This document shows positions 22,732 to 25,419 of a stretch of 32,847 nucleotides of DNA, piece by piece. The position numbers and the translations under genes are program-made. Every line of letters starts with the position of its first letter. Position 1 is the first letter of the stretch. This stretch comes from Bacillota bacterium (lineage in GTDB: Bacteria > Bacillota > UBA4882 > UBA8346). A model generated the notes under the pieces. That model was not told the DNA's origin, ran no database searches, and was given only the letters and a program-made list of their open reading frames with translations. The stretch covers positions 1-32,847 of the forward strand of contig JAAYEK010000162.1 in the NCBI GenBank assembly GCA_012728785.1, given 5' to 3'.

Positions 22732-22759
22732 ATGATCATCCTTATCTGTTTATGTTTAA

Positions 22760-22822
22760 AAGTCGAAGGTTGAAAGTCAAAGGTCAAAGGTTAAAGGTCG
22801 AGTGTCGAAAGTTGAAAGTTGA
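22760..22822. repeat. Nine tandem 7-bp repeats (ARGTYRA)
   Basis: Nine consecutive heptamers fit the consensus ARGTYRA apart from one (AAGTCGA, AGGTTGA, AAGTCAA, AGGTCAA, AGGTTAA, AGGTCGA, GTGTCGA, AAGTTGA, AAGTTGA). They lie between the dapG start and the argH stop. The same kind of heptamer run is seen in intergenic DNA of other Firmicutes; its function is not established. It may be slippage-derived filler or a spaced protein-binding platform. Confidence 0.8.
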
Positions 22823-22892: not shown

Positions 22893-24278
22893 TTAGACCG
22901 ATATTAACTCCAACCATTTACCGGCCCGTTCCAGTTCCAATTTGACCTGATCAAAGCTAGTCCCCCCGGAAGAGTTACGAACTTGGACTACATTTTCGAT
23001 CTTAAGAATCTCATAGATATCCTCACTAATCAGAGCAGATCCGGCTCGAAACTCTTCCATGCTAAGATCTTCTAAACGTTTATGATTATCAAGACAATGC
23101 TTTACTAACTTACCGACCACTCCATGGGCGGTCCGGAACGGAAGGCCCTTACCAACCAGATAATCTGCCAAATCGGTTGCGTTTAAAAAGCCGTCTTTGG
23201 TGGCTTCTAGCATCCGTTCCCGGTTAATGGCCATTGTATCCAGCATCGGTATGAAAATGGTTAAACAGCCCTTTAAAGTATCGCTTGCGTCAAATAAAGC
23301 TTCTTTATCCTCTTGCATGTCTTTGTTATATGCCAAGGGTAGTCCTTTCATCACGGTTAAAATCGTAATCAAATCGCCATAGACCCGCCCGGTCTTTCCC
23401 CGGATCAGTTCGGCGACGTCAGGATTTTTCTTCTGCGGCATAATGCTGGAACCCGTGCTATAAGCGTCATCCATCTCTACAAAACTAAATTCCATCGAGG
23501 ACCAAAGAACCAATTCCTCACAAAAACGAGATAAATGCATCATTATTAAAGCAGTGTTAAAGATGAACTCAGCTACAAAATCCCGGTCACTAACTCCATC
23601 GAGACTATTGGCGGTAACCCCGGAAAAATCTAAGGCTGCGGCTACCTGACCCCGGTTAATCGGAAATCCGGTCCCAGCCAAAGCCCCGCTTCCCAAAGGA
23701 GAAACAGTTACTCGTTTCAAACTGTCTTCAAACCGTTCAAAATCCCGGCGAAACATTTCAAAATAGGCCATCAGATGATGTCCGAATAAAATCGGTTGGG
23801 CCCGTTGCAGATGAGTATATCCGGGCATAATTGTTCCCTTTTCCCGGGTGGCGATTTTTAAGATTACCTCAAATAATCCCTTAAGTATCTTTTGCAGCTC
23901 TAAAATTTCAGCGCGCAAATAAAGCTTGGTGTCTAAAGCAACCTGATCATTCCGACTCCTGGCGGTATGCAATTTCTTTCCCACTTCACCGATTTCCTGA
24001 ATCAATAATTTCTCGACATTCATGTGGATGTCTTCGGCGGTTTGATCCCAGACGATCTGTCCCGCTTTGACTTTTTCCAGGATACGTTTCAAGCCGATAA
24101 TAATTGTTTCCGACTCTGACTTAGGGATAATCTCGGCATCTCCCAACATAGTCGCATGAGCGATGCTGCCCCTTATATCCTCTTCCGCCAAGCGGCAATC
24201 AAAGTGAATTGAAGAATGAAAATCATCCATCAAGGAAGCGGTCTCTTTTTCAAACCGTCCGCCCCAGGCTTTTTTCAT
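22893..24278 (-). CDS. argH: Argininosuccinate lyase
   Basis: Last step of arginine synthesis: argininosuccinate to arginine plus fumarate. The 461-residue length is standard. Conserved segments include KAWGGRFEK at the N-terminus, EDIHMNVE, KLHTARSRNDQVALD, TRPGYTHLQ-type (here PGYTHLQRAQPI), the fumarase-superfamily signature GSSIMPQKKNPD and the C-terminal SSGGT. No argG is in the window, so the pair is split. GGAGG lies 6 nt before ATG 24278. A weak ArgR-box-like sequence at 24309-24326 was noted but not accepted. It is flanked on both sides by tandem repeat arrays. Confidence 0.97.
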   Translation of the reverse strand: MKKAWGGRFEKETASLMDDFHSSIHFDCRLAEEDIRGSIAHATMLGDAEIIPKSESETIIIGLKRILEKVKAGQIVWDQTAEDIHMNVEKLLIQEIGEVGKKLHTARSRNDQVALDTKLYLRAEILELQKILKGLFEVILKIATREKGTIMPGYTHLQRAQPILFGHHLMAYFEMFRRDFERFEDSLKRVTVSPLGSGALAGTGFPINRGQVAAALDFSGVTANSLDGVSDRDFVAEFIFNTALIMMHLSRFCEELVLWSSMEFSFVEMDDAYSTGSSIMPQKKNPDVAELIRGKTGRVYGDLITILTVMKGLPLAYNKDMQEDKEALFDASDTLKGCLTIFIPMLDTMAINRERMLEATKDGFLNATDLADYLVGKGLPFRTAHGVVGKLVKHCLDNHKRLEDLSMEEFRAGSALISEDIYEILKIENVVQVRNSSGGTSFDQVKLELERAGKWLELISV

Positions 24279-24489
24279 GTCAAACCTCCGTGGCCGATAC
24301 TTTCAAAACAGTATGTTTATTCAACAATAGCCCTTCAAATCCTTTTTATCGATCAAAAGTTTTTGGACCTGAGAAATTTTTTGAAAATAAATCCCATCTT
24401 TTTGAAGGAGATTGGAAATTCACCCCGAATCCTAAAATATTCCTTCCTTGGAAATTACATCAGACTTCGAAGCAATAACCAAACCAGTC

Positions 24490-24720
24490 ATAGTAATGGA
24501 TCAACCAATGGTAGGCGCCATTAAGTAACTGGTAGACAAGGATTAACAAGCCGTAGGAATCATTCTGTAATACGTAGGAAGCTTTGAACAACCCGTAGAG
24601 ATGGCTGAGTACGTCGTAGAGAACCTTGAGCAACCCGTAGGAACCCTTGACAAAGTCGTAGGAATCATTGTGTAATCCGTAGGAATGGATGAGTATGTCG
24701 TAGGAATCATTGAGTAAGTA
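24490..24720. repeat. Eleven 21-bp tandem repeats upstream of an unknown gene
   Basis: From 24511 to 24720 ten units of exactly 21 bp begin with GTAG; a degenerate unit at 24490-24510 starts ATAG. The most regular copies (24553, 24658, 24700) begin GTAGGAATCATT. Position 12 is T in all eleven. Units diverge in the middle but keep exact length, so the period is two turns of B-DNA. The plus-strand frames contain many stops. On the minus strand one frame is open through the array but has no normal start. It ends 27 nt before the ATG of the next gene. The rest of 24279-24489 shows no gene. Confidence 0.85.
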
Positions 24721-24747: not shown

Positions 24748-25419
24748 ATGGCCAATCTTAAAACCGGACTCGACCAATTTCTCTTATCAGCCCAAGTTAT
24801 GATCAATAACGCCCTAACTGATGAAGTAATCAGACAGTCCTTGGCAGCCTATGGATATACTGATGAAACCTTGCTTGCCGGGAAAAAACTCTACGAAAAT
24901 GTTACGGACTTACAAAACATCCGGCACAGAGAGTACGGTGAACAGATCGCCGCTACCTCCGAGTTGAAAAAGAGTAGGGAAAAAGCTAAACGACAATATA
25001 TGAAGACTTTAAAAATCGCCCGAGTGGCTTTGAAAGAAAGCGCCAAAGCCAGTAAAGCCATTATGCTTCACGGCGTCCGGAAACGGAACTTCTCCGGCTG
25101 GCTGGAACAAGCCCAGGCTTTTTATGCCAACCTCATTTGCGACGATGAATTTATCGCTTGCCTCTCCGCTTATGGCTACACCCAAGCAAAACTAGAAGAA
25201 GAATTTGCTATCATCAATAAAGTTATTGCCAAACACCTGATTCAAAAGAAGGAAACCGGTGAAGCCCAAGAAGCCACCGTCATTAGAGACAAAGCCCTTG
25301 ATGACTTGGCAGCTTGGATCTCTGATTTTAAGGTTGTGGCTAGGGTGGCTTTGGCGGAAAACCCGCAACAGCTGGAGAAACTGGGGATAGTCATTAAAGT
25401 TAATTGTAAAGAATTTTAA
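24748..25419 (+). CDS. Hypothetical helical protein with internal duplication
   Basis: A 223-residue protein I do not recognise. It is rich in Ala, Lys and Glu and appears almost all-helical and soluble. It consists of two similar halves: SLAAYGYTDETL (about 31-42) matches CLSAYGYTQAKL (about 138-149), and KIARVAL (89-95) matches VVARVAL (196-202), a repeat unit of about 107-110 residues joined by a basic linker (SKAIMLHGVRKRNF). Duplicated four-helix or rod-like folds fit, but the function is unknown. ATG 24748 has GGGTGG upstream. The 21-bp repeats sit directly in front and may control it. Confidence 0.8.
   Translation: MANLKTGLDQFLLSAQVMINNALTDEVIRQSLAAYGYTDETLLAGKKLYENVTDLQNIRHREYGEQIAATSELKKSREKAKRQYMKTLKIARVALKESAKASKAIMLHGVRKRNFSGWLEQAQAFYANLICDDEFIACLSAYGYTQAKLEEEFAIINKVIAKHLIQKKETGEAQEATVIRDKALDDLAAWISDFKVVARVALAENPQQLEKLGIVIKVNCKEF

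Follow-up and report, generated by a model that had tools for sequence, protein, structure and literature searches.

The 32,847-nt stretch of Bacillota DNA that we analysed (hereafter the window) carries, just ahead of a gene, a row of short direct repeats that differ in sequence but not in length, which raises the question of what such an array is and whether anything reads its spacing. Direct reading confirms the eleven 21-bp units of the preliminary description, 10 of which start with GTAG and all 11 of which have a T at position 12. The core array (plus strand, 24511..24720; direct reading, TRF and shuffles) is composed of ten units with GTAG at their start, at positions 24511, 24532, 24553, 24574, 24595, 24616, 24637, 24658, 24679, and 24700, each step being 21 bp. 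Two degenerate units (plus strand, 24469..24510; direct reading) precede the core in the same 21-bp phase, one at 24490 beginning with ATAG and a still weaker one at 24469 beginning with GAAG. The final unit ends at 24720, 27 nt before the ATG at 24748, as had been described. The longest chain of GTAG at 21-bp spacing has ten members in the window versus at most two in 200 Markov shuffles, and the units differ on average at ~40% of their positions. TRF reports periods of 21 and 42; identity is higher at lag 42 (0.65) than at lag 21 (0.57), so the window array has a 42-bp higher order in which alternate units are more alike.

The array has argH (argininosuccinate lyase, Pfam Lyase_1 and ASL_C2; minus strand, 22893..24278) as its divergent neighbour, with the argH upstream region (24279..24468, no strand) in between, and its other neighbours are a PQLLE family gene and an MFS transporter gene. 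Synteny with the same-genus genome G001 breaks at ~24347, 5' of the array and short of it, and a search of G001 found neither a PQLLE gene nor a GTAG array. No RNA family was found in the window with Rfam, and a promoter and terminator scan gave no prediction at the array. TolC and RND efflux genes are also present in the window, which suggests that the host has a two-membrane envelope.

The downstream gene (plus strand, 24748..25419), first taken for an unknown, encodes a 223-aa member of the NCBIfam family PQLLE_fam (NF052641), with an E value of 3.5e-65 and a score of 219.6 bits against a curated cut-off of 80 bits; no Pfam family matched it. The product contains an internal duplication of a ~95-residue helical domain (z 9.8). 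Its structure predicted from the single sequence is all-helical, with a pLDDT of 44 that is too poor for a fold search, and no convincing solved relative was found. PQLLE is a curated family without an assigned function. Four PQLLE genes are present in this genome, none of 60 relatives has one above cut-off (G008, a genome of the same bacterial family, carries two relatives of half length), and in a 299-genome sample of the phylum the family alignment matched this genome only. Searches of phages, plasmids, and viral contigs did not find PQLLE.

All four PQLLE genes in this genome have a 21-bp array 5' of them, in the same orientation, and in three of the four the array ends ~27-50 nt from the start codon. 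The closest paralogue of the window gene (contig C286) has a GTAG array ~220 nt upstream, and the remaining two (C285 and C10) have period-21 arrays of other sequence, ending ~30-50 nt before the start codon. By profile comparison, the units of C285 and C10 are related to the GTAG unit in the same orientation (z 5.0 for C132-C285 and 4.0 for C132-C10, C132 being one of the loci with related arrays). Over 600 bp, the genes of C285 and C10 share 93% identity, whereas 5' of codon 4 their ungapped identity falls to the random level of 24-29%, both regions being 21-bp arrays. The gene copies are recent and the arrays different, with the period the same. At L019:2565-3200 and on the complement of L020, a PQLLE gene body was apparently copied without its start region, the two being 93% identical in the gene and unalike from codon 4 upstream. 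Since arrays are rare (one in the arbitrary 409-kb sample described below), an array at four of four PQLLE genes is far beyond chance, and when the window gene, which was the source of the finding, is excluded, the link still holds for three of three. In G008, one of the two half-PQLLE genes has about eleven units arrayed immediately 5' of it, while the array near the second precedes a different gene, 1.4 kb off. No array accompanies the distant PQLLE fragment of a Flammeovirgaceae genome.

Arrays also occur elsewhere in the genome. The GTAG-21 pattern has 15 matches versus none for a reversed control, and a pattern of four GTAG units has 37 versus none for its control. Related arrays are found at about ten loci (C80, C82, C126, C132/C163, C162, C217, C237, C286, and the window), a count that is probably too low because several contigs of the draft assembly end within arrays. 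All of them lie in gaps between genes (divergent, convergent, and co-directional), next to unrelated genes that include a semialdehyde dehydrogenase (argC-like), glycosyltransferases, a histidine kinase, a penicillin-binding protein, and a His_biosynth-family gene. In C217, for example, an array of ten units (L212:4264-4473) sits between co-directional NUDIX and His_biosynth-family genes, 28-31 nt from each. The arrays of C82, C237, and C126 are unit-by-unit copies of one another, and homology between loci begins or ends at array edges. GTAG is absent from the units of C285, C10, and C2. No PQLLE domain was found next to the orphan arrays when the sampled DNA was searched. The link to the downstream gene proposed in the preliminary description thus extends to every PQLLE paralogue, but the array is not specific to the 24748 gene. 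That description had also held that a repeat scattered over unrelated sites with variable unit length would speak against a role for spacing; related arrays do lie at many unrelated intergenic loci, but their unit length is not variable. Further repeats were seen in this genome. A second dispersed repeat (GGCCTCCGGCCACC...) adjoins two arrays (L017:1590-1790) and is also matched at C126, C275, C83, C235, and C69. In C295 (L213:2595-2784), a different 21-bp array with a repeated palindrome, ACACTATAGTGT, lies just 5' of a gene and looks like a row of operators.

We then compared how period and sequence change. Across the GTAG arrays, 82 in-phase steps between adjacent units have accumulated 635 substitutions and zero phase changes, a zero-indel count that is strong but not unbiased because an in-phase search favours indel-free arrays. 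Duplicated flanks, in contrast, show 2 gap openings to 21 mismatches in one case and 6 to 29 in another. Length is therefore conserved better than sequence, as first proposed, and the missing phase changes fit selection on length. In an arbitrary 409-kb sample of this genome's contigs, chosen by number and a few on other grounds, a scan of periods 12-39 at a strict threshold gave a single array, which has period 21 (C2) and a unit, CACTCCGGAGTATCTCGGAGA, that bears no relation to GTAG; with a looser threshold, periods 14 and 39 contribute one further hit each.

Period 21 recurs on unrelated units inside the family, in C2 of this genome and in G001, G007, and G008. The G001 array has yet another unit sequence, with phase shifts inside. 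In 160 kb of the same-family genome G007 there are 12 arrays of period 21 versus three of other periods, built on about five unrelated units, all without GTAG; of these twelve, one or more are probably coding repeats. The G007 arrays lie at L351-L358, and their density in 160 kb suggests hundreds genome-wide. Small samples of G006 (42 kb) and G004 (5 kb) yielded no arrays. Across the family, the 21-bp period is kept and the unit sequence is not, while the periods are mixed in genomes from other parts of the phylum. Dispersed GTAG-21 arrays also occur in the more distant G408 and G192, with unit interiors of their own. Most G408 arrays that lie between co-directional genes have the orientation of those genes. 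The G192 elements (L202-L208 and L277-L288), found mostly in convergent gaps or 3' of genes, consist of a fixed leader, TTAGTTTCCATAATATGACTTCG, three to five GTAG units of 21 bp, and a fixed last unit, GTAGAAGAACGNCCGCTCAGT, and by this layout they look like a small mobile element. The unit patterns had no meaningful match in phages and plasmids. In viral contigs, a pattern of four GTAGG units matched mostly arrays that are open in several frames and probably are coding repeats, and the more specific unit patterns were absent. A search of one literature library for 21-bp arrays and PQLLE found no published description.

Together, these findings show that the window array belongs to a family-wide class of non-coding arrays that lie between genes, have a fixed period of 21 bp, and are largely free in unit sequence. 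As for its role, 21 bp correspond to two turns of B-DNA. We tentatively favour a DNA platform constrained in length, on which proteins would bind side by side and which would form part of the control region of the PQLLE genes. A protein with weak sequence preference would bind the array cooperatively, making one set of contacts every 21 bp, always on the same face of the helix; substitutions would then be tolerated, whereas an indel would disrupt the row. The candidate binder could be PQLLE itself or another protein, and away from PQLLE genes the platform would persist as orphan sites. Multi-site protein binding, already put forward in the preliminary description, fits the fixed unit length, since unit length is kept under sequence change as expected of a protein-binding array, and we retain it as a candidate reading. 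Also in its favour are the indel-free steps next to flanks that readily gain gaps, period 21 on unrelated units, the same-orientation arrays at four of four PQLLE genes although arrays are rare, the differing arrays of the near-identical C285 and C10 genes, the array at one G008 half-PQLLE gene, and the absence of codon-position bias. Several findings count against it: arrays are present in convergent and co-directional gaps too, beside unrelated genes; the strongly different unit sequences are hard to square with one sequence-specific protein; half-turn (10.5 bp) substructure is patchy, being seen in some arrays only; the G001 array has phase shifts; and the Flammeovirgaceae PQLLE fragment lacks an array. 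A bolder version, which we consider unlikely, would have the family carry tens to hundreds of intergenic arrays built by, or under selection for, a sequence-free 21-bp ruler, i.e., a machine that would copy or occupy DNA two helical turns at a time and to which the PQLLE genes would be dedicated partners.

The chief rival of the platform, a strong one that is possible if not quite probable, is a neutral or selfish dispersed minisatellite, in which one ancestral 21-bp array, or a few, spread to intergenic sites through recombination and then drifted. Unequal crossing-over and slippage copy whole units, so the period would persist, and the PQLLE link would come from common descent or joint mobility. 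This is in line with the unit-by-unit copies in C82, C237, and C126 bounded by array edges, with the relatedness of every PQLLE array to the dispersed GTAG unit, with the lack of a preferred gene context, and with the fixed leader and trailer of the G192 arrays. However, drifting DNA is not expected to show zero indels against hundreds of substitutions, the unrelated units of C2, G001, and G007 have the period in common although no shared ancestry is detectable, and all four PQLLE genes have an array although arrays are rare.

An element acting at the RNA level is improbable. The array would be part of a transcript, as an untranslated region at its 5' or 3' end, and the repeated units would be contacted by an RNA-binding protein or would influence translation, as has been proposed for the TAACTGA direct repeats of Beggiatoaceae (MacGregor 2015, PMC4679880). 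Those repeats are likewise short, direct, and intergenic, many of them close 5' of start codons and with no obvious functional class, but they conserve a 7-bp sequence (PMC4679880), whereas the arrays here conserve a 21-bp length. The sense orientation before all four PQLLE genes, the short distance to the start codon, the C217 array between co-directional genes, and the G408 arrays that run with the genes would all suit such an element. Against it, no single-strand motif is fixed across families, convergent gaps hold several of the arrays, and folding is unconserved and of mixed strength, the z-scores ranging between arrays from +3 to -7 with no common rule.

That the arrays are coding, the 21 bp being seven codons of perhaps decayed heptapeptide repeats (e.g., DLLNDSY on the minus strand), is very improbable: one minus frame is stop-free in several arrays, but no open frame with codon-position bias was found, the third-position excess of variation being absent from any consistent frame. 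The window array has stops in all plus frames and two of the three minus frames, and its stop-free minus frame starts just past a stop, with no usual start codon nearby.

Other known systems were compared by layout and context. Like CRISPR, the array is made of regular direct repeats, but its units abut at 21 bp without spacers and the whole unit is repeated with graded divergence, which bears out the earlier exclusion of CRISPR. Centromere-like and operator arrays such as parC/ParR have repeats in helical phase, and the window array resembles them in its ~ten direct repeats of near two-turn length just 5' of a gene. It differs in having many copies per genome, a unit sequence that changes by locus, and no known partition gene adjoining. 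The iteron-like element once suggested is unsupported. The replication or partition gene expected next to an iteron or partition site does not adjoin the window array, and the orphan arrays lie beside unrelated genes.

The GTAG REPs and BIMEs known from Proteobacteria, Cyanobacteria, Chloroflexi, and PVC are defined by a palindromic stem next to a GTAG tag (Di Nocera 2013, PMC3733652). A family of this kind moved by a RAYT transposase is mostly refuted and very improbable: the arrays do share with it GTAG at one end (as in the window units), a size of ~20 bp, intergenic dispersal, and sometimes tandem arrangement (PMC3733652), but they follow a strict head-to-tail 21-bp period, stems of at least 5 bp in the unit body are found in none of the 10 window units and in 3 of the 73 units that make up eight arrays, which is not above shuffles (the window array folds worse than shuffles), GTAG is lost in the sister array types of C285, C10, C2, and G007, and there is no intact RAYT, the sole Y1 transposase match in this genome being a broken gene and the array-rich G408 having none. 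This Y1 (IS200-like) gene is split across two overlapping contig ends (start of C95, L227; end of C166, L226) and contains an internal stop.

Bacterial repeats are normally recognised via a conserved sequence, whereas here length is conserved across genera and sequence is not. A spacing that is read would point to a protein, DNA-organising or regulatory, that gauges two turns of the helix; if the spacing is not read, the arrays offer a clean case of how tandem repeats keep their period. Either way, the functionally blank PQLLE family gains a testable context. Finally, heptamer tandem repeats (GACTTTG-like and ACAGGAG-like), with a 7-bp length that is one third of 21 bp, are present at 22758-22822 of the window, 5' of the C286 PQLLE gene (L018), and at 4600-4720 of L015.
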